From assembly GCF_000772045.1 (NCBI RefSeq), contig NZ_CP009754.1, positions 5,828,001-5,892,000 of the forward strand: a stretch of 64,000 bases of DNA, read 5' to 3'. The stretch comes from Streptomyces sp. CCM_MD2014 (lineage in GTDB: Bacteria > Actinomycetota > Actinomycetes > Streptomycetales > Streptomycetaceae). Positions 10,979 to 51,242 of this stretch are shown here, in pieces. Below the pieces are notes generated by a model. The model was not told where the DNA came from. It did no database searches and was given only the letters and a program-made list of their open reading frames with translations. How positions within the stretch are numbered: the stretch's first letter is position 1; the number at the start of each line of letters is the position of its first letter. The translations under genes and the position numbers were made by a program.

Positions 10979-13900
10979 ATGCTCGAACCGACCGAACCCA
11001 CCGGGTCCGCGACCAGCTCGACGGACACCGAGTCGAACACCCCCAGCGACACCCTGCCGCCGCGCCGCCGGCGCAGGGCCGCGTCCCGCCCGGCGGGCCC
11101 GCCGTCCGGCGCCTCCGAGGCGCCGGCGGAGACCGTCACGCCGGCCGAGCCGGCCCCCGCAGAGCCCGCCGAGGCCTCCGAGCCGGCTCCGGAGCCGGCC
11201 GCCCCCGCCCGGCCGCGGCGCCGTGCGGTGCGTCGCGCCTCCGCGCCCGCCGGGGCTCCCGCGTCGGCGGAGGCGGCCGAGACCGTCGTGCCCGCGGCCC
11301 CCGCCGCCGAGACGCCGGCCCCGGCCGAAGAGGCTGAAGAGGCGGAAGAGGCCGCACAGACCACCGAGACCGTCGAGGCGCCCGCCGAGAGTGCCGCGCC
11401 CAAGGGGCGTACCCGGCGGCGTGCCACGCGCAGCGTGACCTCGGCCGCCGAACCGAGCGCCGAGGCGGCCGCCGTGGTGGCTCCGGAGCCGGTCGAGGCG
11501 CCCGCGCCCGCCGCGGAGGAGACCCGGGGCGAGGCCGAGAGTGCCGCGCCCAAGGGGCGTACCCGGCGGCGTGCCACGCGCAGCGTGACCTCGGCCGCCG
11601 AACCGAGCGCCGAGGCGGCCGCCGTGGTGGCTCCGGAGCCGGTCGAGGCGCCCGCGCCCGCCGCGGAGGAGACCCAGGGGGAGGCCGAGAGCGCCGCGCC
11701 CAAGGGCCGGACCCGGCGGCGTGCCACGCGCCGCGTCTCCGCCCCGGCCGAGGCGCCCGTCGAGGCCGCCGCCGAAGCGGGCGAGCCCGAGGCCGCCGCC
11801 CCGACCGCCGCGACCCCCGAGCCCGCGAAGTCCGCGGAGCCGGCCGCTTCCGCCGCGCCGGCCGAGAGCGCCGAGTCCGGGGAGGACGCCGCGCCGCGTC
11901 GTGCGCGCCGCCGCTCCACCCGTAAGGCGGCCTCCGGTTTCGCCGCCCCGGCGCAGTCCGCCGCCGCGGCGTCCGACGAGGCGGACGCCCCCAAGCGCCC
12001 CTCGCGTCCCGCGGTCGCGGTGTTCCAGGCGCCCGTGTTCGCCGAGCCCCAGTTCCAGACGCCCGAGCGCGCCGCGGCCGAGGCCGCCGCCGAAGCGGCC
12101 GGTGCCGAGTCGGCGAAGCCGGCCGAGGAGAGCGCGGAGTCCCGCGAGGAGCAGTCCGCCGGCTCGCGCCGCCGCCGCAAGCGTCGGGGCGCCGCCGCCG
12201 AGGAGGCCGCCGAGGAGCGGGCCACGGCCGCCGACAACCGGGACGAGCCCGAGGCCGACGCCGACGCGAAGGGCGAGGAGGAGGCCGAGTCCGACGCGTC
12301 GGGCGACGACCACGACGACGCCGAGGGCTACGAGGAGTCCGGTTCGCGCCGTCGTCGTCGCCGGGGCGGCCGTCGCCGTCGCCGGGGTGACGCCGCGGAC
12401 GGCGACCTGACGGATGGCGAGGTCGAGCAGACCGCCGCCGAGCAGGCCGCCGAGGACGCCGAGGACACCGCCGAGCAGGCGGAGGAGGACGCCGAGGACA
12501 GCGGCGAGGAGGCCGCCGGAGAGAGCGGTGGCTCCAGCAGCAGCCGTCGCCGTCGTCGCCGGCGCCGCCGGGCCGGGGACTCCTCCGGAGACGGCGAGTC
12601 GTCCGCCGACGACCCCGAGCGCACCGTCGTCAAGGTCCGCGAGCCGCGCCCGAAGCCCGAGCCGTCCGACGAGGTGCAGTCCATCAAGGGCTCGACCCGT
12701 CTGGAGGCCAAGAAGCAGCGCCGCCGCGAGGGCCGCGAGCAGGGCCGCCGCCGTGTGCCGATCATCACCGAGGCGGAGTTCCTGGCCCGCCGTGAGGCCG
12801 TCGAGCGGGTCATGGTCGTCCGCCAGCACGGCGAGCGCACCCAGATCGGCGTCCTGGAGGACGGGGTGCTCGTCGAGCACTACGTCAACAAGGAGCAGGC
12901 CACCTCGTACGTCGGCAACGTCTACCTCGGCAAGGTGCAGAACGTGCTGCCGTCGATGGAGGCCGCCTTCATCGACATCGGCAAGGGCCGCAACGCCGTC
13001 CTGTACGCCGGCGAGGTCAACTTCGAGGCGCTGGGAATGGCCAACGGCCCGCGCCGCATCGAGTCCGCCCTCAAGTCCGGCCAGTCGGTCCTCGTGCAGG
13101 TCACCAAGGACCCGATCGGCCACAAGGGCGCCCGCCTGACCAGCCAGGTCTCGCTGCCCGGCCGCTACCTGGTCTACGTGCCCGAGGGCTCGATGACCGG
13201 AATCAGCCGCAAGCTGCCCGACACCGAGCGCTCCCGCCTCAAGACGATCCTGAAGAAGATCGTCCCCGAGGACGCGGGCGTCATCGTGCGCACCGCCGCC
13301 GAGGGCGCCAGCGAGGACGAGCTGCGCCGCGACGTCGAGCGGCTCCAGGCGCAGTGGGAGGACATCCAGAAGAAGGCCAAGGGCGGCAGCTCCAGCGCGC
13401 CCACGCTGCTGTACGGCGAGCCGGACATGACCGTCCGGGTCGTGCGGGACATCTTCAACGAGGACTTCTCCAAGGTCGTCGTCAGCGGTGACGACGCCTG
13501 GCAGACCATCCACGGCTACGTGTCCCACGTGGCGCCGGACCTCGCCGAGCGGCTGTCCAAGTGGACGAGCGAGGTCGACGTCTTCGCCACGTACCGGATC
13601 GACGAGCAGCTCGCCAAGGCGCTGGACCGCAAGGTCTGGCTGCCCAGCGGCGGTTCGCTGGTGATCGACCGGACCGAGGCGATGGTCGTCATCGACGTCA
13701 ACACCGGCAAGTTCACCGGTCAGGGCGGCAACCTCGAGGAGACGGTCACCAGGAACAACCTGGAGGCGGCCGAGGAGATCGTGCGCCAGCTCAGGCTGCG
13801 CGACCTCGGCGGCATCATCGTCATCGACTTCATCGACATGGTGCTGGAGTCCAACCGGGACCTGGTGCTGCGGCGCCTGCTGGAGTGCCTGGGCCGGGAC

Positions 13901-18868: not shown

Positions 18869-20821
18869 TCAGGCGATGTCGCTCCGAGCCCAGGTCCAGC
18901 TGCGGTTGCCGTCCGCGCTGTCCCACACCTTGACCGGCCTTCCGAAGCCGGTCCCCGTGCTCGTGAACGTCAGCAGGCCGGTGCGGTTGCCGCTGCCGTC
19001 GGCCAGGGCACCGTAGTCGTAGAGCACGGCGACGTCGTCTCGGCCGTCACCGTTGAAGTCGCCGGAGACCGTTTTCGAACGGCTCCACGTCCAGCTGCCA
19101 CTGTCTGCGCTGTCGTAGGCCTTGACCGGGTCGGCGAAGACCGAACCGGTGCTCTTCAGCGTCCACAGCACCGTGCGGTTGCCTCCGCCGTCCGCCCGTA
19201 CACCATTGTCGTAGAGCACGCCGACGTCGTCTCGGCCGTCGCCGTCGAAGTCGCCGGAAAGCGGCTTGGAGTTGGCCCAGGTCCAGCTGTGGTCGCCGTC
19301 CGCGCTGTCCCACGTCATGACCGGCTTGCCGAAGCCGGATCCCGTGCTCGTGAACGACCACAGGCCGGTGCGGTTGCCGCTGCCGTCGGCCAGGGCCCCG
19401 TAGTCGTAGAGCACGGCGACGTCGTCTCGGCCGTCACCGTTGAAGTCGCCGGAAAAGGGCTTGGAGTTGGCCCAGGTCCAGCTGTGGTCGCCGTCCGCGC
19501 TGTCCCACGTCATGACCGGCTTGCCGAAGCCGGATCCCGTGCTCGTGAACGTCAGCAGGCCGGTGCGGTTGCCGCTGCCGTCGGCCAGGGCCCCGTAGTC
19601 GTAGAGCACGGCGACGTCGTCTCGGCCGTCGCCGTTGAAGTCGCCGGTGATCGCCTTGGAGCGGTTCCAGGTCCAGCTGCCGCTGTCGGTGCTGTCGTAT
19701 GCCTTGACTGGCTTGTCGAAACCGGACCCGGTGCTGTTGAAGATCCACAGCGTTGTGCGGTTGCCTCCGCCGTCCGTCCGTGTGCCGTTGTCGTAGAGCA
19801 CGCCGACGTCACTGCGGCCGTCTCCGTTGAAGTCACCCGAAAACGTCTGCGAACGGCTCCCGTTCCAGCTGCCCCAGCCCTCGCTGTCCCACTTGCGCTG
19901 CGGCTCGGCGAACCCGGACCCGGTGCTGGTGAGCGACCAGAGAGACGAGCGGAACCCACCGCCGGTGACAGCGCCGTTGTCGTACAGCACGCCGACATCA
20001 CTGCGGCCGTCACCATTGAAGTCGGATGCAGGGGTCCTTACGGCATTCTCGGCGATCCAGTCGCTCAGGTCGTCGACCCGGGTGCCAGTAGCCTCGGAGG
20101 TGGTTCCCTCCGCCGATTCGATGCCGAAGCAGCCCACCTGGTTCGACCGACTGTTGATGCCGACGAGCGTGGGTCGGCCGTCGGCCATTCGGAACACCGG
20201 GCCACCTGCGTCGCCCTGGCAGACGGATGCGCCGTCCTTGCCGCTCAGGGACAGGTCACCACCGCTCACGGCAGTGAGGGCGAACGTGCCGGTGTGTTTG
20301 TCGAGCGGCGCCCATTCCTCCGCCGTACGGCCGTGACCGGCAATGGTGAGATCCTGCCCGGCGGCCGGTGCGGTGGGGGACACCTTGATGGGGTCCACGC
20401 CCGTCACCGGCTGCGCGAGACGGGCCAGCACGAGATCGCGCTCGCCGTGGGGGAGAAGCTCCACGATGTCACGGGTCTGGCCGCCGGGCAGTGTGGCGAT
20501 GGTCTTCAGCCGGGGTGCGCCGGCCGCAATCGTGAGATCGGCGGCCGGATTGTCGGCGAAACAGCTGGCGGCGGTGAGCACCCATTCGGAAGATACCAGG
20601 GTGCCCGAGCAACCATGTTCGTAGTCACCGATCAACAGCCGGGCGGTGAAGCCGTAATCGGTGTCCTGGCTCGGCGTCCCGACTACCGCGTGCGAGGGTA
20701 TGGCGCTCAGGAGGAGCAGCGGCGCTGCACCGACCACCGCCGCGGCCCTGGCCACGAAGCCCAGAGCACCGGGTCGTCTGAGGCGTGTTGGTTGTACGGC
20801 TGTGCTGCTGGATGGCTTCAT
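18869..20821 (-). CDS. Secreted trypsin-fold pseudoprotease with six FG-GAP/VCBS-type repeats
   Basis: 650-aa exported protein. A signal peptide (about 1-45, ending IPSHA) precedes a chymotrypsin-fold domain to ~275 and six ~64-residue FG-GAP repeats, each with a DFNGDGRDDVAVLYD-type calcium-loop motif. The triad is broken. The His position reads LTAASC instead of TAAHC (Ser86) and the Ser position reads GDAGGP instead of GDSGGP (Ala205); Asp129 in RDLVLARL remains. It is probably a binding or adhesion protein, not a protease. The ATG at 20821 has a GAGGA site 6 nt upstream; a 29-codon upstream extension lacks one. Its paralogue at 25824-27644 shares both substitutions. Confidence 0.88.
   Translation of the reverse strand: MKPSSSTAVQPTRLRRPGALGFVARAAAVVGAAPLLLLSAIPSHAVVGTPSQDTDYGFTARLLIGDYEHGCSGTLVSSEWVLTAASCFADNPAADLTIAAGAPRLKTIATLPGGQTRDIVELLPHGERDLVLARLAQPVTGVDPIKVSPTAPAAGQDLTIAGHGRTAEEWAPLDKHTGTFALTAVSGGDLSLSGKDGASVCQGDAGGPVFRMADGRPTLVGINSRSNQVGCFGIESAEGTTSEATGTRVDDLSDWIAENAVRTPASDFNGDGRSDVGVLYDNGAVTGGGFRSSLWSLTSTGSGFAEPQRKWDSEGWGSWNGSRSQTFSGDFNGDGRSDVGVLYDNGTRTDGGGNRTTLWIFNSTGSGFDKPVKAYDSTDSGSWTWNRSKAITGDFNGDGRDDVAVLYDYGALADGSGNRTGLLTFTSTGSGFGKPVMTWDSADGDHSWTWANSKPFSGDFNGDGRDDVAVLYDYGALADGSGNRTGLWSFTSTGSGFGKPVMTWDSADGDHSWTWANSKPLSGDFDGDGRDDVGVLYDNGVRADGGGNRTVLWTLKSTGSVFADPVKAYDSADSGSWTWSRSKTVSGDFNGDGRDDVAVLYDYGALADGSGNRTGLLTFTSTGTGFGRPVKVWDSADGNRSWTWARSDIA
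19031..20010 (-). repeat. Six tandem ~192-bp FG-GAP coding repeats
   Basis: The conserved GACGTCGTCTCGG core recurs at 19031, 19223, 19418, 19613, 19805 and (variant GACATC) 19994, giving periods of 189-195 bp. The units around 19280-19475 and 19475-19670 are almost identical in DNA, indicating recent duplication. Confidence 0.9.
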
Positions 20822-24600: not shown

Positions 24601-24950
24601 GCCTCCCGCCGCACGCCAGGACCCGCGTAATTGAGCATCTCCAGGACGGAGATGCGTTCGTCCTCGCGTCGTGCCCGGGCCAGCCCCGTGGCGAGGAAGG
24701 CCGACAGGGCTTCCGGGGTTCCGATCAGTGCCTTCTCCGCCTCGCCCCGCACAGCGCGGCCACCGAGCAGCCAAGCGTCGACGGCTCGCTTCCGGGGACC
24801 GTCCTCGGGGTTTCCGTCGGCCGCGATCGCCGGCGAGTTTCTCGTCCCCACCACCGAAACCGCGGTAGCGGCGACCGCCAGCGTCAGAAAGCGTCTGCGT
24901 GAGGGGCCCCATTCGGCTACTCCTGGCTTCGATGCATTGCGTCTCAGCAT
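21639..24950 (-). CDS. Tat-exported ALF-repeat coiled-coil protein with hydrophobic C-terminus, candidate polymorphic toxin
   Basis: 1103-aa exported protein. The N-terminus carries a twin-arginine motif SRRRFLT (18-23) and a hydrophobic core ending near AIA at ~43. Four ALF-type repeats (about 50-240, for example AVDAWLLGGRAVRGEAEKAL) precede a long Ala-rich coiled coil, a second ALF-like block near 620-790, and more coiled coil. The last ~110 residues switch to Gly/Ala-rich hydrophobic segments (about 1005-1043 and 1055-1076) joined by a short polar link. ALF repeats are known in actinobacterial exported and polymorphic-toxin-like proteins. The ATG at 24950 has an AAGGGAAG site; a 58-codon extension is not favoured. 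A toxin role is inferred from the C-terminus and the neighbouring membrane gene. Confidence 0.75.
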   Translation of the reverse strand: MLRRNASKPGVAEWGPSRRRFLTLAVAATAVSVVGTRNSPAIAADGNPEDGPRKRAVDAWLLGGRAVRGEAEKALIGTPEALSAFLATGLARARREDERISVLEMLNYAGPGVRREAQLALSGTDADLHAFVTKGYTVPLADDRRVAVLTVLGAGGRAVVREANKALDDGSPEALDAFLEKGQFTAREEDDRFETISMLSDAGPNLTQAINRALDGTAADIREFLRHGQHLARARDQEQLTVGQLVLQAQNAGARAHEATVKAKEAAEHAEAASIEAKKAALLAAEESLAAKDDALKASRAAGRAADAANGAAAAARTAVAASRTAISAAHTAASAAQAAAAAAAAASRASVRAYRAASAASKDAGQASAARQAAEVARDTAKKARTAAAAASAAADASAQAKTSSSAAARAGQNAAASANAAADAAAASGVSQAQAKRARDAAALATSAANTATAAANRAGSLADRAAVAARDAHKAANSAADHADAAAAAADDAAEHAGEAQDWANEATLQADKAVTAATDAADAVTQAQNIAALARETETAWLAEERARAIEMARQLKEEEEDYRARTEQVQTQHELTDQETRDLLAQARAESDPARVAALGRKAAARLMDATGTWTREAAQDALAGDDQAMVDWVSQAHDEATQLDDRERVLTLATAGNAALADAAQKVLADSGQQAVTTFLTEGALAVQADDYRVEVLRTLQGAGRAVTTAANEALDDGSVEALHAYLLSGYPAAKQEDDRVATVAALKDAGPNVEAAAQAALEGPQWMLERFVTIALHKARQADQDTATHVASIQAQIARAAAIAAKAFEEAAEAAKAAADARGSAEDAQKWATQAAASAQDAKDYAADAAASATQADASAAAAASSAKQASDAAATARSASRQANYSANQAIASANTAVAAADSARASADRAYADAIAAGKDADAAQAASLEAKAAHQEKRQQEIRQQAAEAAQKAKYNAENNINPADSPANDKVDFDKIDQENVDSAAAAATYMGRVSAVLGGAAVVAAFIPGGQLVAAGLAGASLVFAGASALYNLKAYGWGSAFATSVAGIALTLGLGGVGSLAANSMVSNVGKAAIKGVHDTVSSVVGWFTS

Positions 24951-25312
24951 GTGTATTCGGCTTCCCTTGGCCTGAAATCGTGTGTACAGGCGCTCGCGTG
25001 CACCTCTTTGCAAGTTTCGCTCGACAATATTCCAGGGGCATCGACCTTTCAGCAAGAGGGCAATCGCGGCTCGCCCTCTTCTTGTGTTGTGTCGAAATGA
25101 GAGTGAATTGTCGGATAAGTCCATTATTGAGTGCTTTGATTTCTGTTAATGGCAAATCGCGGCATTGATTAATATTTCGCAGCAGAATGTGAGACGCGTT
25201 GAATCCGGGGTCGAGATCACGAATTGGTGAAGGTGGGCAGGGTGTGGCTACTCGTGGACCTAGGGTGAAGGCGTGTGTTTTCCAGGTCGGCCTTTTGTGA
25301 AGGAGCGGACGA
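24951..25312. other. 362-bp divergent, AT-rich intergenic region
   Basis: Promoters for the ALF gene (leftward) and the secreted-protein operon (rightward) must lie here. DNA around 25080-25190 is strikingly AT-rich for this genome (GATTAATATTT and similar). A TAGGGT at 25261-25266 is a possible -10 for the rightward operon. Confidence 0.5.
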
Positions 25313-25813
25313 GTGAAGATCGCGAAGCATCTCTTGGTGGCAGCCGGCGTGCTGGCCGTTGCCGTCGCGGGCATTGAATTCGGAACGGCGCAGGGGGGAG
25401 TCGAGTCTCCGCGCGTTGAAAGCGTGGTCGACGGTGTTCCCGGCTATGCGGTGGAAGATTTCAACTATCCGCAAGCGGACAAGATTCTTGAGGAACGTGG
25501 CATTGTTCTGAAGCGTGGCGACGGGCACATTATTCTGGCGGACTGCGGAAGTCAGGAAGGGCTGCTGGTGGTTTGGTCGCGGAGCCGGGAGAGTGTTTGT
25601 TTCCGGGTCACCGGAGACTCTGGATTCCTGACCATGGAGATGCCTGCAGTCTACGCAGTCCGGGGAAACTCCTACGAGACGGATGTGACGATGACTGTGG
25701 GGGAGGAGGAAAAGCACTTTGAAATCACTAAAAATGCCTGGACGAATGTCGGTGAAGCGGCTGACCCCGAGGATGGCGACCACATGTTGGTAGAGATCAC
25801 GACCAACAAGTAG
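25313..25813 (+). CDS. Small secreted protein of unknown function
   Basis: Not recognised. The 166-aa product has a signal peptide (KHLLVAAGVLAVAVAGIEFG) and a ~140-aa mature domain with predicted beta character and two cysteines ~20 residues apart (LADCGSQ, SVCFRV) that could form a disulfide. GTG 25313 follows GAAGGAG. Codon use is less GC-biased than neighbours (several AAT, ATT, GTT codons), suggesting foreign origin. The stop is 10 nt before the FG-GAP pseudoprotease start, so the two should be cotranscribed and possibly act together outside the cell. Confidence 0.75.
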   Translation: MKIAKHLLVAAGVLAVAVAGIEFGTAQGGVESPRVESVVDGVPGYAVEDFNYPQADKILEERGIVLKRGDGHIILADCGSQEGLLVVWSRSRESVCFRVTGDSGFLTMEMPAVYAVRGNSYETDVTMTVGEEEKHFEITKNAWTNVGEAADPEDGDHMLVEITTNK

Positions 25814-25823
25814 GAAGAAGAAG

Positions 25824-27644
25824 ATGGACAACAGATCGATCAGGCATTCTCTGATTTTTCGGGCTCTGCTCGCAGCGTCCGTTCTTTCCCTGCCACTGGC
25901 TGTCACTGGTTCCCCCGCTCAAGCTGTCGTAGGGTCCCCGGTCGTCGACAACGACTACACCTTCACCGCCAAGCTGGTCGTTGGCGAACACGCCCGCGGT
26001 TGTTCCGCCGCGCTGGTGTCCAAGGAGTGGCTGCTGAGCGCGGCCAGTTGCTTCGTGGGCGACCCCGCGGCCGGGATCGCCGTCCCCGCTGGCAGGCCCA
26101 AGTCGGAAACGGTCGCGACGCTGGGCGACGGCTCCTCCTCTGTCCCCCGGCAGACCCGCGAGGTAGTCGAGCTTCGGCAGTATGGACAGCGTGACCTGGT
26201 GCTGGCTCGCTTGGCGCAGCCCGTGATCGGCATCGAGCCGGTGACAGTCTCCGCAACAGCGGCCGCGGCTGGGCAGGAACTGACGAGCGTCGGATACGGC
26301 CGCACGGCAGAGGAGTGGGCGCCGGTCAAGCCGCACGCCGGCAGCTTCACCGCCGACGCGGTGGACAACGGCGAAGTGACCGTCAGCGGTAAGGACAACG
26401 CTTCCATCTGTATGGGCGACGCCGGTGGGCCCGTACTTCGAGCAGCCAACGGCAAGCCCGAACTCGTCGCCGTGAGCAGCCGCTCGTACCAGGTCGGCTG
26501 CTATGGCGTGGAGAGCCCGGAAGGTACACCGAACACGGCAGTCGCCACCCGTGTCGACGACGTGCGTGCCTGGATAGCCGACAACGCCAAGCAGACGCCG
26601 GCCCAGGACTACAACGGCGATGGCCGCAGCGACGTGGCCACGTGGTACGACTACGCCGACGGCAGCGACAAGGTGCACCTCTGGGACGGCGGTATGCATG
26701 GCGCCATGCAGCTGCCCACCGTCGCGTACTCGGCCGACGCCGGCACCTGGAACGAGGACGACGCGAAGCTGGTCACCGGTGACTACAACGGTGACGGCCG
26801 CAGCGACATCGGGTTGTTCTACGGCTACTCGGACGGCACGGTGAAGCTGTTCACCAAGAACGCCAAGGCCGACAGCACGTTCGAGGGGTCGGTCGTTTCC
26901 TGGACCGACACCGACTGGACCTGGGGGCGGATGCACCCGTACACCGGCGACTTCAACGGTGACGGCCGCGACGACATAGCCGTGTGGTACGACTACGCCG
27001 ACGGCAGCGACAAGGTCTTCACCTTCCTCTCCAAGGAAGACGGAACCTTCAACAAGCCCTTCACTGCTTGGAGCCGCGCCAGCGGTTGGACCTTCGACCA
27101 CATGAAGGTGTCCACGGGCGACTTCAACGCCGACGGTCGCGACGACCTGGGGCTCATGTACTTCTACGACACCGGAGAGGTGAAGACCATCACCCTTCCC
27201 TCGTTGGAGACCGGGGCCTTCCAGCACGACCAGGTGGAGGGGTGGACCAGCGGCTCCTGGGGATCGGCGGAGCGCACCAGCGTCCAGTCCGGGGACTTCA
27301 ACGGCGACGGCCGCGACGAACTGGCTGCCTGGTACGACTACAGCGACGGCTCGGACGCGGTCATCAGCTTCTCGTCGACTGCCGCGAACGGAGCCCTCAC
27401 CGCGCGCAAGGAGATCTGGCGGGCGGACGCCGGCCGGTACACGCGTGACCACATGCGCGTCGTCGGCGGCGACTACAACGGTGACGGTCGGGACGACCTC
27501 GCCACCCTGTACGGCTACGACGACGGCAGCCTCAAGATGATCACCTGGGCGGCCAATGCGGACGGCACGCTCAACGAGCCGCTGCACGGCGCCGAGAAGA
27601 CGACCGGGTGGAACTACGACCGCGTCAGCGTCTTCATGCGCTGA
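25824..27644 (+). CDS. Secreted trypsin-fold pseudoprotease with FG-GAP repeats (paralogue)
   Basis: 606-aa exported protein with a signal peptide ending SPAQA (~34), a degenerate chymotrypsin-like domain (35-255) and six ~60-residue repeats with DYNGDGRSDV-type loops. As in the paralogue at 18869-20821, the catalytic His is Ser (SAASC, Ser75) and the catalytic Ser is Ala (GDAGGP, Ala200), while Asp124 (RDLVLARL) is kept. The repeats alternate two types, WYDYADGSDKV and YGYSDGTVKL, so a pair may be the structural unit. The ATG at 25824 has a GGAAGAAG site. It is the second gene of a two-gene operon, followed by a terminator. Confidence 0.87.
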   Translation: MDNRSIRHSLIFRALLAASVLSLPLAVTGSPAQAVVGSPVVDNDYTFTAKLVVGEHARGCSAALVSKEWLLSAASCFVGDPAAGIAVPAGRPKSETVATLGDGSSSVPRQTREVVELRQYGQRDLVLARLAQPVIGIEPVTVSATAAAAGQELTSVGYGRTAEEWAPVKPHAGSFTADAVDNGEVTVSGKDNASICMGDAGGPVLRAANGKPELVAVSSRSYQVGCYGVESPEGTPNTAVATRVDDVRAWIADNAKQTPAQDYNGDGRSDVATWYDYADGSDKVHLWDGGMHGAMQLPTVAYSADAGTWNEDDAKLVTGDYNGDGRSDIGLFYGYSDGTVKLFTKNAKADSTFEGSVVSWTDTDWTWGRMHPYTGDFNGDGRDDIAVWYDYADGSDKVFTFLSKEDGTFNKPFTAWSRASGWTFDHMKVSTGDFNADGRDDLGLMYFYDTGEVKTITLPSLETGAFQHDQVEGWTSGSWGSAERTSVQSGDFNGDGRDELAAWYDYSDGSDAVISFSSTAANGALTARKEIWRADAGRYTRDHMRVVGGDYNGDGRDDLATLYGYDDGSLKMITWAANADGTLNEPLHGAEKTTGWNYDRVSVFMR

Positions 27645-36377: not shown

Positions 36378-38567
36378 CTACACGCGGCCGCGCGGTTCCG
36401 GAGCCGGGCGGGGGGCGGACGGCCCGGCCGGTTCCTGGCGCGGGCCGGGCACGGGGAGGTCCGCGGCGAGCCGCTCCGCCCTCCTGGCCCGGTGCCGCAC
36501 CGCCGCGGCGGACAGCTCCCGCACCGCGCCCGCGAAACGCTCCCGGGACGGCGGCTCGGCCGGGCCCAGCAGACGCAGCGCCAACGCGGCGCGCTCCCCG
36601 GCGAGTTCGTCGAGCTCCGGATGCCGCACCGACGCCAGCAGCGCCGGCACCCCGGACGCGTCCGGCGCCAGCACGGTCGCCGCCGCCACCGTCGGGTACG
36701 ACTTGCGGAACACGTCCTCGGCCAGCCCGCTGGTGTTGGCGACCGCGTACGGCTTGCCGCTCGCCAGGAAGTCGCTGATCACGCTCGACACGTCGCTGAT
36801 CAGCAGGTCGGCCCGGTTGAAGCAGGAGTACAGCGGCGGGCGGACGTCCGCGACGACCTGGTGCTCCCACTCGGGCAGCGACGCCCAGTGCGCCTCCTCC
36901 CAGGCGGCCGTCGCCCGCCGTACCGCGTCCGCCCGTCCGGGCCGCGGCGCCGGCTGCCGCAGCATCCGCTCCGCCTGGTCCGCCGCCGACCGGAAACCGG
37001 CCGCGGTGAGCCGGTCCAGCTCCGCCGCCCGCCGGGCCAGGACGCCGGCCGCGCAGGCGTCCGGACGGGGCCCGCCCCGCTCCCGGTTCGCCGTCCGCAC
37101 CAGTTCCCGGATGCGCAGATCGGCGGCGCGGGCCCGCGGATCCACGGAGCCCGTCAGCGGATGCGGCTTGTACAGCAGCCGTACGCCCGGGTCCGCGAGC
37201 AGCGCCCGCACCAGGTTCTCCCCGGCCTCCATCACCGACGTGTTGCCGGGGTTGCCGTCCCAGCCCTCCCAGGTCGGTGCGTACAGGACGGTCGTGAACG
37301 CCCCGGGCGCGGGCGGCCCCGCGTACGGCTGTACGGCGTCCAGTTGCGGGCGGCCGATCTCCACCACGTCCTTGTCCTCGACGCCGACTTCCGCCAGCGC
37401 GTACCGCTCGCGCGCCGCGGGGCCCGCCACCCACACCTCGTCGTACGCCTTCGCGTACGGGTTGCACGAGGACAGCTTGTCGCTCTCCCCGTGGTTGACG
37501 AAGGCGTGCTTGATGGTCGGGATGCGCAGGACCTGCGAGGTCTTCCCGGAGTTGGACGGGTGGAGCAGGACCCGGAGCGTCGAGTGCTCCAGGCGCATCA
37601 GCGTGGACACCTTCGGCAGGCACACCACCGGGATGTCGGTCGCCGCGATCCGCTGCACCATGTGCCGCTCCCGCAGCACGATCACCGGGCGCCCGTCCAG
37701 GCCGGCCAGCGGCTCCAGCCACATGTTCGCCTGGTACGCCGAGGACGCACCGCCCGAGAAGTAGAGGCCGACGGTGGGCCGGTACCGTGCCAGCCACGCG
37801 TCGAACCACTCGAGCACCTCCTGCTCCCCGGCGGGCCGGCGGCCCGGCAGCAGCCGCAGCAGCAGCGTGCACAGGCCGGTCAGCGCCAGCGCCAGGGACA
37901 GCGCGAGCCCGGCCGCCCCGTACACCGGCGCGTCGGTCGCCGCCGTGGCCAGCAGCCCGGCCGTCGCGGGCAGCCCGAAGGCGGCCAGCCGGTGCCCGGG
38001 ACGGCGCAGCAGCGCCGGGGGCGCCGGAGTCAGCCGCAGCGCCGAGGCGTCGATGTTCCGGGTCACCACGGGCAGCGTGCGGGTGCGCCGGACCAGGACG
38101 GACACCGCCTGGATCGCCCAGTGCAGCGCGTAGAAGACGAGCAGCCCGGCGACGAGCGGGGCGTAGGCCCCCTCGCGGTGCTGCTCGCCCAGGCGCAGCA
38201 GGCCCACCACGAGCAGCAGGTCCCGCAGGACGTGGCGGACGGTGACGTCGGCGTGCGACTTGGCGAACAGCGACACCATGCCCCGCTGCCACCGGTACAG
38301 CGCCCCCTCGGCGGCCAGCGAGGCGGCGCTCGCGGCCAGCAGCAGCGGCACGTGCGGCAGCAGCGCGCCCAGCGCCTGCGCGGCGAAGGCGGCGGCCAGC
38401 ACACCCAGGACCAGCAGCTTCACGGCGGCCCGCCGCCGCCCGGGCAGGCGGAGGCGGGGACGGGGGCCACGGGGCCGCACGGAGGGCCGGGGCGGGCGGG
38501 GGAGACGGCGGCGGGACAGGCGGGGCAGGGATAGGGGCACTGCGGTCGCTCCAGACTCGTCGCGCAT
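36378..38567 (-). CDS. Membrane-anchored CDP-glycerol glycerophosphotransferase-family protein
   Basis: 729-aa protein with a basic N-terminus, about six membrane helices (residues ~48-260) and a C-terminal GT-B domain related to TagF. Visible motifs are HAFVNHGESDK near 370 (the HG of the family), TVLYAPTWEGWDG, LYKPHPLTG and DLLISDVSSVISDFLASGKP. It lacks the GT2 domain of its neighbours, and the integral N-terminus suggests it works at the membrane on a lipid-linked acceptor. The ATG at 38567 has no obvious ribosome site; GTG 38423, just before the first helix, is an alternative. The G-rich minisatellite lies directly upstream. Confidence 0.8.
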   Translation of the reverse strand: MRDESGATAVPLSLPRLSRRRLPRPPRPSVRPRGPRPRLRLPGRRRAAVKLLVLGVLAAAFAAQALGALLPHVPLLLAASAASLAAEGALYRWQRGMVSLFAKSHADVTVRHVLRDLLLVVGLLRLGEQHREGAYAPLVAGLLVFYALHWAIQAVSVLVRRTRTLPVVTRNIDASALRLTPAPPALLRRPGHRLAAFGLPATAGLLATAATDAPVYGAAGLALSLALALTGLCTLLLRLLPGRRPAGEQEVLEWFDAWLARYRPTVGLYFSGGASSAYQANMWLEPLAGLDGRPVIVLRERHMVQRIAATDIPVVCLPKVSTLMRLEHSTLRVLLHPSNSGKTSQVLRIPTIKHAFVNHGESDKLSSCNPYAKAYDEVWVAGPAARERYALAEVGVEDKDVVEIGRPQLDAVQPYAGPPAPGAFTTVLYAPTWEGWDGNPGNTSVMEAGENLVRALLADPGVRLLYKPHPLTGSVDPRARAADLRIRELVRTANRERGGPRPDACAAGVLARRAAELDRLTAAGFRSAADQAERMLRQPAPRPGRADAVRRATAAWEEAHWASLPEWEHQVVADVRPPLYSCFNRADLLISDVSSVISDFLASGKPYAVANTSGLAEDVFRKSYPTVAAATVLAPDASGVPALLASVRHPELDELAGERAALALRLLGPAEPPSRERFAGAVRELSAAAVRHRARRAERLAADLPVPGPRQEPAGPSAPRPAPEPRGRV

Positions 38568-39574
38568 CGGACAACCGGGTTAACGCCCGGTGACCGCCCG
38601 ACGACACGCGCGTGTTGACGCCGGGCCTTGACGGGCGGGGAGGGGGCGGGGTCCGCATGCGTGGGCGAAAGGGGGTGTGGGCGCTGGCGGGGTCGTGGGC
38701 GTGGCGCGGCACTTGCGCGGGTGCGGTGGCATGCGGGGCGGGGTCGGGCGGGGTGCGGTGCGGGGTCTGCACGGTGGGCGAGTGGGGTGCGGGCGTGGAC
38801 GCTGCCGGAAGCGCGGTCGTGGACGTGGCACGGCACCCGCGCTGGCGCGGCGTGATGCGGGGCCGGGGCGAGGGTGTGGCGGGGATGCGGACCGGTGCGG
38901 GGCCCGCATGCGCGGGCGAGAGGGGGCGTGTGGGCGTGGACGCTGAGCGAAGCGCGGTCGTGAACGTGGCGCGGCGCGGCGCGCACGCGCTCGGACGCGG
39001 GGCGGGGCCGGGGCGAGGGTGTGGTGGGGATGCGGACCGGTGCGGGGCCCGCATGCGCGGGCGAGAGGGGACGTGTGGGCGTGGACGCTAAGCGAAGCGC
39101 GGTCGTGAACGTGGCACGGCACCCGCGCTGACGCGGCGTGATGCGGGGCCGGGGCGAGGGTGTGGCGGGGATGCGGACCGGTGCGGGGCCCGCATGCGCG
39201 GGCGAGAGGGGGCGTGTGGGCGTGGACGCTGAGCGAAGCGCGGTCGTGAACGTGGCGCGGCGCGGCGCGCGCTCGGACGCGGGGCGGGGCCGGGGTGAGG
39301 GTGTGGCGGGGAAGCGGACCGGTGCGGGTGCGGCGGGCCCGGGCAGGGGCGTGACGGGCCGGGAGGTGGCGGGGAGGGGTGGGGTCGGCGTGGACGGGCC
39401 GGGAGGCGGCGGGGAGGAGAGGGGTCGGCGTGGACGGGCCGGGAGGTCGCGGGGAGGGGTGGGGGCGGCGTGGACGGGCGAGGCGGCTTCGTCGCCCCCC
39501 GTCCGCAGCGTGAACTCCGGTGCGGTGCGTGTTCGCCTTCGCGTAGATTGCCTGGCGAGCGCAGGGATCGGCGC
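38568..39574. other. ~1-kb intergenic region dominated by G-rich tandem repeats
   Basis: No gene supported. Frames stay open on both strands only because of extreme GC content. The repeat array occupies most of it (listed separately); the last ~100 bp upstream of proB are ordinary and should hold the proB promoter. Confidence 0.7.
38640..39345 (+). repeat. G-rich minisatellite with 140-146-bp units
   Basis: The marker ATGCGGACCGGTGCGGGGCC recurs at 38884, 39030 and 39171, with a degenerate copy at ~39311 (periods 146, 141, 140). Each unit also carries GCATGCGCGGGCGAGAG and GAGCGAAGCGCGGTCGTGAA. The + strand is strongly G-biased. GGGGCGGGGTCGGGCGGGG at 38735-38753 fits the quadruplex pattern of four G3+ runs with 1-7-nt loops. 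Confidence 0.85.
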
Positions 39575-40750
39575 GTGTCGACGGGAGAGGCGGACGGGGC
39601 CGTGGCAGGGGCAAGGCCGGGGACAGGGCCGGATGCGAGGCAGGCCGTGGGCGAGGCCCGCAGGATCGTCGTCAAGGTCGGGTCCTCCTCGCTGACCACC
39701 GCCGAGGGAGGCCTGGACGCGGACCGGGTCGACGCGCTCGTCGACGTGCTGGCCAAGGTGCGCGGGACGGACAAGGAGATCGTCCTCGTCTCCTCCGGCG
39801 CCATCGCCGCCGGCCTCGCCCCGCTGGGCCTGCGCCGCCGCCCGAGGGACCTGGCCCGTCAGCAGGCCGCCGCCAGCGTCGGCCAGGGGCTGCTGGTCGC
39901 CCGCTACACCGCCTCCTTCGCCCGCTACGGCGTACGCGTCGGCCAGGTGCTGCTGACCAGCGACGACATGAGCCGCCGCGCCCATCACCGCAACGCCTCC
40001 CGCACCCTGGACAAGCTGCTGGCGATGGGCGCCTTCCCGATCGTCAACGAGAACGACACCGTCGCCACCGACGAGATCCGCTTCGGCGACAACGACCGCC
40101 TCGCCGCACTCGTCGCCCACCTGGTCCGCGCCGACCTGCTGGTGCTGCTGTCCGACGTGGACGGCGTGTACGACGGCGACCCGAGCCGGCCGGGCACCTC
40201 GCGGCTGGCCGAGGTGCGGGACATGGCCGACCTCGCGGGCGTCGACATCGGCAGCGCGGGCAAGGCCGGCGTCGGCACCGGCGGCATGGTCACCAAGGTC
40301 GAGGCGGCCCGCATCGCCGCAGCCGCCGGCATCCCCGTGGTGCTGACCAGCGCAGTCCACGCCGCCGACGCCCTGGCCGGCGGCGACACCGGCACGTACT
40401 TCCACGCCACCGGCCGCCGCTCCGCCGACCGGCTGCTGTGGCTGCAGCACGCCTCCGCCCCGCAGGGGGCGCTCGTCCTCGACGACGGCGCCGTACGGGC
40501 GGTCGTGGAGGGCCGCAAGTCGCTGCTGCCGGCCGGCATCGCGGGCGTCGAGGGGGACTTCGCCGCGGGCGACCCCGTCGAGCTGCGGGACGGCGCCGGC
40601 CGGGCGGTGGCCCGGGGACTGGTCAACTTCGACGCCAAGGAGATGCCCCGGCTGGTCGGCCGCTCCACCCGGGAACTGGCGCGCGAACTCGGACCCGCGT
40701 ACGAACGCGAGGTCGTACACAGGGACGATCTGGTGATCCTGCACCCGTAA
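39575..40750 (+). CDS. proB: Glutamate 5-kinase
   Basis: First step of proline synthesis: ATP-dependent phosphorylation of glutamate, handing gamma-glutamyl phosphate to ProA. The ~391-aa protein has the amino-acid-kinase start RRIVVKVGSSSLTT, VLVSSGAIAAGL, PIVNENDTVATDEI and GVGTGGMVTKVEAA, then a C-terminal PUA domain (about 300-391). The start is uncertain: GTG 39575 has AGGGA at good spacing; GTG 39602 (VAGARPG) is also possible. Normally proB is followed by proA; here one conserved small gene lies between. The minisatellite sits upstream. Confidence 0.95.
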   Translation: MSTGEADGAVAGARPGTGPDARQAVGEARRIVVKVGSSSLTTAEGGLDADRVDALVDVLAKVRGTDKEIVLVSSGAIAAGLAPLGLRRRPRDLARQQAAASVGQGLLVARYTASFARYGVRVGQVLLTSDDMSRRAHHRNASRTLDKLLAMGAFPIVNENDTVATDEIRFGDNDRLAALVAHLVRADLLVLLSDVDGVYDGDPSRPGTSRLAEVRDMADLAGVDIGSAGKAGVGTGGMVTKVEAARIAAAAGIPVVLTSAVHAADALAGGDTGTYFHATGRRSADRLLWLQHASAPQGALVLDDGAVRAVVEGRKSLLPAGIAGVEGDFAAGDPVELRDGAGRAVARGLVNFDAKEMPRLVGRSTRELARELGPAYEREVVHRDDLVILHP

Positions 40751-50350: not shown

Positions 50351-50423
50351 GGGGCTATAGCTCAGTTGGTAGAGCGCCTGCATGGCATGCAGGAGGTCAG
50401 GAGTTCAATTCTCCTTAGCTCCA
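50351..50423 (+). tRNA. tRNA-Ala (anticodon GGC)
   Basis: 73-nt cloverleaf. The acceptor GGGGCTA pairs with TAGCTCC (one G-T), D-arm GCTCAGTTGGTAGAGC, anticodon stem CCTGC/GCAGG with loop ATGGCAT (GGC reads GCC), and T-arm with GTTCAATTC. CCA is not fully encoded. An identical copy lies at 51170. Confidence 0.97.
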
Positions 50424-51169: not shown

Positions 51170-51242
51170 GGGGCTATAGCTCAGTTGGTAGAGCGCCTGC
51201 ATGGCATGCAGGAGGTCAGGAGTTCAATTCTCCTTAGCTCCA
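51170..51242 (+). tRNA. tRNA-Ala (anticodon GGC), second identical copy
   Basis: Same 73 nt as 50351-50423, but with different flanks: only the tRNA itself is duplicated. A TAATGT -10-like box lies at 51126-51131. Confidence 0.97.

Follow-up and report, generated by a model that had tools for sequence, protein, structure and literature searches.

A G-biased A-B-A-B minisatellite in the Streptomyces spacer that separates a TagF-like gene from proB

Introduction

A survey of prokaryotic satellites counted 38 satellites (4.20 per Mb) in Streptomyces coelicolor (PMC6749651), and bacterial satellites are thus already known in this genus. Such satellites share with the locus reported here tandem noncoding units of tens to hundreds of base pairs on a bacterial chromosome. 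Mycobacterial VNTR/MIRU loci likewise consist of tandem repeats in intergenic DNA, with a copy number that is expected to differ between strains. The CEB1-type G4 minisatellites of yeast and human consist, like the present array, of G-rich units that each carry a quadruplex pattern (PMC7063842), and the Borg tandem repeats are also recent, rapidly evolving and independently arisen arrays (PMC9879509). In a search of the literature on Streptomyces repeats and quadruplexes, on proB/TagF and on G4 minisatellites, none of the titles listed describes the locus.

Here, we describe a G-rich repeat block located in the window, a 64-kb stretch (positions 5,828,001-5,892,000) of a Streptomyces chromosome available as one contig of 8.27 Mb. 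Coordinates given without a unit refer to the window, unless stated otherwise.

Results

A reading of the sequence alone had placed a minisatellite between a TagF-like gene and proB, and this is borne out by TRF, which reports an array at 38780-39328 (period 141, 3.9 copies) with a score of 840; when 38640-39480 was shuffled 100 times with dinucleotides preserved, no score exceeded 112. The main array hence consists of head-to-tail units within the ~10-200 bp range of minisatellites and beyond chance. Four good units with 80-93% pairwise identity are spaced at 145, 141 and 141 bp, the end of the fourth being diverged. They are preceded by a decayed unit u0 (38643-38779), which is 56-60% identical to the good units. 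The tandem array of the sequence-only reading therefore stands, with its count of three good copies and one decayed copy corrected to four good units and one decayed unit before them. The same applies to its extent of 38640-39345, which captured the array and missed a second G-rich array that directly follows it (39348-39479; 40-bp units, 3.3 copies, TRF score 222, skew +0.58).

The good units are of two types ordered A-B-A-B, a higher-order repeat. The first A-B dimer (38780-39064) comprises u1 (38780-38919) and u2 (38920-39064), and the second (39065-39346) comprises u3 (39065-39205) and u4 (39206-39346, with the diverged end). The two dimers are 91% identical across 286 columns. An exact match of 139 bp is found at lag 286, starting from 38846, whereas the longest at lags 141 and 145 is only 45 bp. 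The latest event was thus duplication of the dimer.

The strong G bias of the + strand is confirmed, with a skew of +0.37 for the 141-bp array. The highest 600-bp skews of the window (0.37-0.39; window mean -0.01, SD 0.09) fall within the block. A quadruplex pattern is present exactly at 38735-38753, as had been noted, though it belongs to the decayed copy u0. Every good unit carries such a sequence pattern of its own (at 38859, 38999, 39145 and 39281). Quadruplex prediction, proposed earlier as a check, gave 9 pattern clusters in the block, whereas 500 dinucleotide shuffles averaged 4.2 and a single one of them reached 9. These 9 clusters, inside 38640-39480, represent 9 of the 22 clusters in the entire window.

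The G-rich block (38640-39480) is bordered by the putative promoter regions of two divergent genes, the TagF-like gene and proB. The former gene (36378-38567, - strand) forms the left flank and reads away from the array. It is assigned to the CDP-glycerol glycerophosphotransferase family by a weak match (Pfam PF04464, E 1.9e-5, 24.3 bits versus a cut-off of 22.1), and the best segments of its product are 86-93% identical to homologues including those of S. coelicoflavus, S. violaceorubidus, S. hyderabadensis and S. tendae. Codon usage places the gene call at 36378-38423, the start codon being inferred. On the right flank, proB (39602-40750, + strand) encodes glutamate 5-kinase (PF00696, E 6.8e-45; PF01472, E 1.6e-20). 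Its gene call is 39647-40750 and its start codon is uncertain (39470, 39602 or 39647). Both calls were made with a home-made gene finder based on codon usage.

Conserved regions are located upstream of both genes. On the TagF-like side (38579-38615), the motif GTTAACG (38579-38585) is found in 77 of 82 relatives' tagF-proB intervals, and the perfect 12-bp palindrome ACACGCGCGTGT (38604-38615) has an exact copy in 50 of the 82. The region as a whole is a candidate promoter/operator of the TagF-like gene, and the palindrome a candidate operator. On the proB side (39501-39549, + strand), GTCCGCAGCGTG (39501-39512) is followed by TAGATT (39544-39549), found in 77/82 intervals and likely the -10 element of proB. 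A scan with the sigma-70 consensus detected no promoter.

Frames are open over the array for up to 344 aa (minus strand), and these had been read as effects of composition. This view is upheld. G+C is flat across codon positions in the array (0.78/0.79/0.82), in contrast to proB (0.79/0.50/0.96), stop counts per frame are near expectation, and the change in spacing from 145 to 141 shifts the reading frame between units. The gene finder called no gene over the array. Evidence of translation or a protein homologue had been named as the finding that would speak against a noncoding array; a Pfam search with four translated frames of the array matched no family. Long open frames at a G+C near 80% are thus no sign of a gene. 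Elsewhere in the window, repeats do occur within predicted genes: a 195-bp (65-codon) unit is repeated 4.9 times in tandem at 18888-19892, indicating a repeat protein, and a 150-bp unit (2.4 copies, 97% identical) at 11384-11736 represents a recent in-frame duplication. A gap of 1.16 kb in the gene-finder calls (24855-26015) stands out in this genome by its unusually low G+C (0.57) and contains an open frame of 166 aa (25313-25813, + strand).

The suggestion of a structured RNA finds no support, as no Rfam family reaches its gathering score in the array and folding of the good units matches that of shuffled copies (z -0.2 to -0.6). The 40-bp array slightly exceeds its own shuffled copies in this respect (z -2.2, 4/200). 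In the window as a whole, only two tRNAs reach the Rfam threshold; the two genes (50351-50423 and 51170-51242) have equal scores, lie 819 bp apart and are possibly duplicates. A CRISPR array was considered and rejected: three CRISPR-DR28 matches reach 22.7 bits (E 0.35), well below the 35 bits required, and it is the whole ~141-bp unit that repeats. A role as transcription roadblock, also raised earlier, appears disfavoured by the conserved promoter-like elements of both genes, which flank the array and are directed away from it. If these elements are indeed promoters, neither transcript would cross the array.

A search for dispersed copies in the chromosome, as had been proposed, revealed no strong second copy: among the 40 of 214 candidates that were scored, only the array itself and one match of 55 bp at 80% identity were found. 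On these scored candidates, we rejected a dispersed satellite/MIRU family. When the whole 1033-bp interval was used to search the genus (best 2 candidates per genome), at least 178 of 199 genomes were matched. Among the matches listed, the strong ones correspond to the flanks while any within the array are of short length and low score (at most 57 bits), and the search thus does not demonstrate the array elsewhere.

The corresponding slot was compared using one genome per species. From 101 rows, 13 (anchors missing or same-strand neighbours) and 6 duplicates were removed, leaving 82 distinct rows with both genes. An extra gene occupies the slot in 30 of these (gene call >900 bp in 30/30), leaving 52 gene-free. 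Five of the loci with an extra gene were viewed, and by eye the gene resembles a polysaccharide pyruvyl transferase in L115, L132, L093 and L119, and another TagF-like protein in L146. Arrays are present in 11 of the 52 gene-free slots, with slot lengths of 161-924 bp. A further 27 motif-delimited slots are array-free and span 37-259 bp, while in the other 14 gene-free rows the motifs did not define the slot limits, and the interval has no TRF array of score 50 or above. Counted outside the 11 are L079 and L078, with arrays (scores 151 and 132) in the wider gap beyond the delimited slot, as well as weak in-slot arrays (53-67) in L077, L079 and L109. The three sister rows that form a starred four-row group with the window (L088, L073 and L158) have slots of 37, 49 and 93 bp. 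In L158, GACGGGCCGG shows a weak likeness to the 40-bp unit by eye, which is too short to establish a local origin of this unit.

On a tree of 81 rows built by a quick method, the 11 arrays require 9 changes. When the array slots were compared in all 55 pairings, similarity extended over the arrays in L155, L159 and L160 alone, while L107, L110 and L124 share just the first 74-89 bp of the slot. The remaining four pair hits score 34-47 bits, about what a shuffled slot attains (up to 43.7 bits). The arrays thus fall into nine unrelated sequence classes and, together with the tree changes, amount to about nine separate births in this slot. Arrays are present or absent across species, with neither sequence, unit nor length conserved. 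G exceeds C on the proB strand in 11/11 array slots, compared to 14/27 array-free slots; the exception is the L110 array proper, with a skew of -0.05. Arrays with a score of at least 150 occur in 9/79 slots versus 6/355 neighbouring gaps in the same loci, and without five added loci in 6/74 versus 6/348 (p 0.009). The slot is longer than neighbouring gaps; as a share of bases, its enrichment in arrays is roughly twofold (9.8% versus 4.6%). The proposed recombination hot spot can therefore be retained as a site of repeated array growth (11/52 slots, nine classes), with slippage or unequal exchange the presumed process.

Noncoding arrays are not rare in this genome, and the present one belongs to an ordinary class, in which it has the strongest G skew. 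In 2.06 Mb of the genome, 86 noncoding arrays have a TRF score of 60 or above, and in 2.464 Mb, 21 score at least 150 and 4 at least 500. Larger ones among the 86 are located at 6.01 and 2.10 Mb, the former partly overlapping a predicted gene end. Of 45 GC-rich gaps measuring 300 bp or more, the present gap has the highest skew. The notion that divergent gaps in general are array hot spots was rejected, given that arrays cover 2.6% of their bases versus 2.5% in co-directional and 4.3% in convergent gaps.

A second slot, the divergent gap between a RibD-like gene and zapE, holds an array of 170-bp units (2.9 copies) at 2,104,542-2,105,042 of the chromosome (L209:4542-5042). In 30 genomes this gap measures 18-774 bp, and relatives have other arrays or a short gap there. 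Arrays scoring at least 150 are found in 4/30 genomes (units of 170, 14, 26 and 90), and each of the 8 slots among the 30 that reach 300 bp is negatively skewed (-0.08 to -0.36), a polarity opposite to that of the proB slot. For a third gap (4.31 Mb), both flanks were found in 9 genomes, 5 further rows lacking one of them; in 9/9 the gap is long and C-biased, in most cases with no strong array.

Since dnaA is located at 4.384 Mb, with the replication origin beside it, the + strand at this locus corresponds to the leading-strand sense. A link between polarity and replication was formulated on the 2.06-Mb sample. Among long GC-rich gaps, 5/5 with |skew| of at least 0.19 have G in the leading sense, compared to 2/8 with |skew| of 0.1-0.19; the gap L193, at -0.188, is below the threshold. 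G is on the leading strand in 32/47 arrays versus 65.6% of 151 equally skewed array-free intergenic stretches, and arrays with a G+C of at least 0.75 reveal no strand bias (30/54). A 400-kb hold-out (20 stretches, 0.25-2.97 Mb) contained no eligible gap. The link is at present a weak lead.

Discussion

We consider it probable that the block is a young, lineage-specific, noncoding minisatellite that arose by neutral slippage or unequal exchange in an unconstrained spacer. Most likely, the array is filler without a sequence-specific job. The repeat anatomy, the absent coding signal, the short sister slots and the repeated independent growth of arrays in this slot are direct observations, from which we infer slippage or unequal exchange, neutrality and absence of transcription. 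In this spacer, from which the promoter regions on either side face outwards to the TagF-like gene and proB, short G-rich direct repeats may have slipped or exchanged unequally to yield the ~141-bp unit. Copies of this unit would then have diverged into types A and B prior to duplication of the 286-bp A-B dimer, with the 40-bp array arising beside the 141-bp array. The product would be untranslated, probably part of neither transcript, and at most inert spacing.

Three observations speak against this neutral reading: the slot is about twofold richer in arrays per base than neighbouring gaps, quadruplex patterns exceed the dinucleotide expectation, and the single G polarity of 11/11 array slots is unexpected under pure neutrality without a strand-dependent mutation bias. 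A rival reading is growth assisted by quadruplexes, where G-runs on one replication template would stall synthesis and lead to duplications, arrays being born repeatedly at certain slots with a fixed polarity. Such a process would be in keeping with the pattern in every good unit and the 9 clusters versus 4.2 expected, with the uniform bias of the proB-strand slots (11/11) and of the long RibD-like/zapE slots (8/8), and with leading-strand G in 5/5 of the most skewed long gaps. Furthermore, the instability of yeast CEB1 is reported to depend on G4 strand orientation (PMC7063842). We nevertheless regard it as unlikely, because leading-strand G in arrays (32/47) is not above the level of array-free stretches (65.6% of 151), falls to 30/54 in the GC-richest arrays and to 2/8 in the less skewed gaps, and the hold-out offered no eligible gap. 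In addition, the expanded slots L155, L124, L107 and L110 are without a strict quadruplex pattern, and the L110 array itself has a skew of -0.05.

Selection could alternatively act on the array as a regulatory or insulating spacer, separating the divergent promoters or tuning them via DNA structure. In each delimited case the array does lie between conserved upstream elements of both genes, and quadruplex-rich DNA upstream of genes is reported to be enriched in bacteria (PMC12563890). However, sister rows manage with 37-93 bp, neither sequence, unit nor length is conserved, and divergent gaps are not richer in arrays (2.6% versus 2.5% co-directional and 4.3% convergent), making a selected spacer very improbable. 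Even less credible is a coding or structured-RNA element, be it a repeat protein or an array-derived RNA: the minus-strand frames of up to 344 aa and the folding of the 40-bp array (z -2.2, 4/200) are offset by the lack of codon periodicity, unit lengths that break the frame, the absence of any Pfam or Rfam match at threshold, good units that fold no better than shuffled sequence and a CRISPR-DR28 score of 22.7 bits versus the cut-off of 35.

Beyond this locus, we tentatively propose, as a rather doubtful but possible generalisation, that certain conserved Streptomyces intergenic slots are minisatellite nurseries, in which arrays of new sequence arise repeatedly across species with a polarity constant per slot (G-rich proB strand here, C-rich zapE strand at the second slot). 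Replication direction, or some other strand-specific process on quadruplex-prone DNA, would set this polarity. Taken singly, the array is ordinary. If the set is real, independently born arrays with one polarity in one syntenic slot would provide a probe of strand-specific minisatellite birth in very GC-rich bacteria. The block is furthermore a candidate variable marker to type strains of this clade.

A comparison to the known systems places the locus as follows. It differs from the prokaryotic satellites of PMC6749651 in its two-level A-B repeat within a strongly G-biased block, and in the recurrence of unrelated arrays in one slot across species. Unlike mycobacterial VNTR/MIRU loci, it is known from one genome per species, and no dispersed family was found in the own-genome search. 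Where CEB1 (PMC7063842) is concerned, the present units are known from sequence patterns alone, with weak evidence on orientation. Finally, the Borg repeats (PMC9879509) reside on archaeal extrachromosomal elements, whereas the array described here is part of an actinobacterial chromosome.
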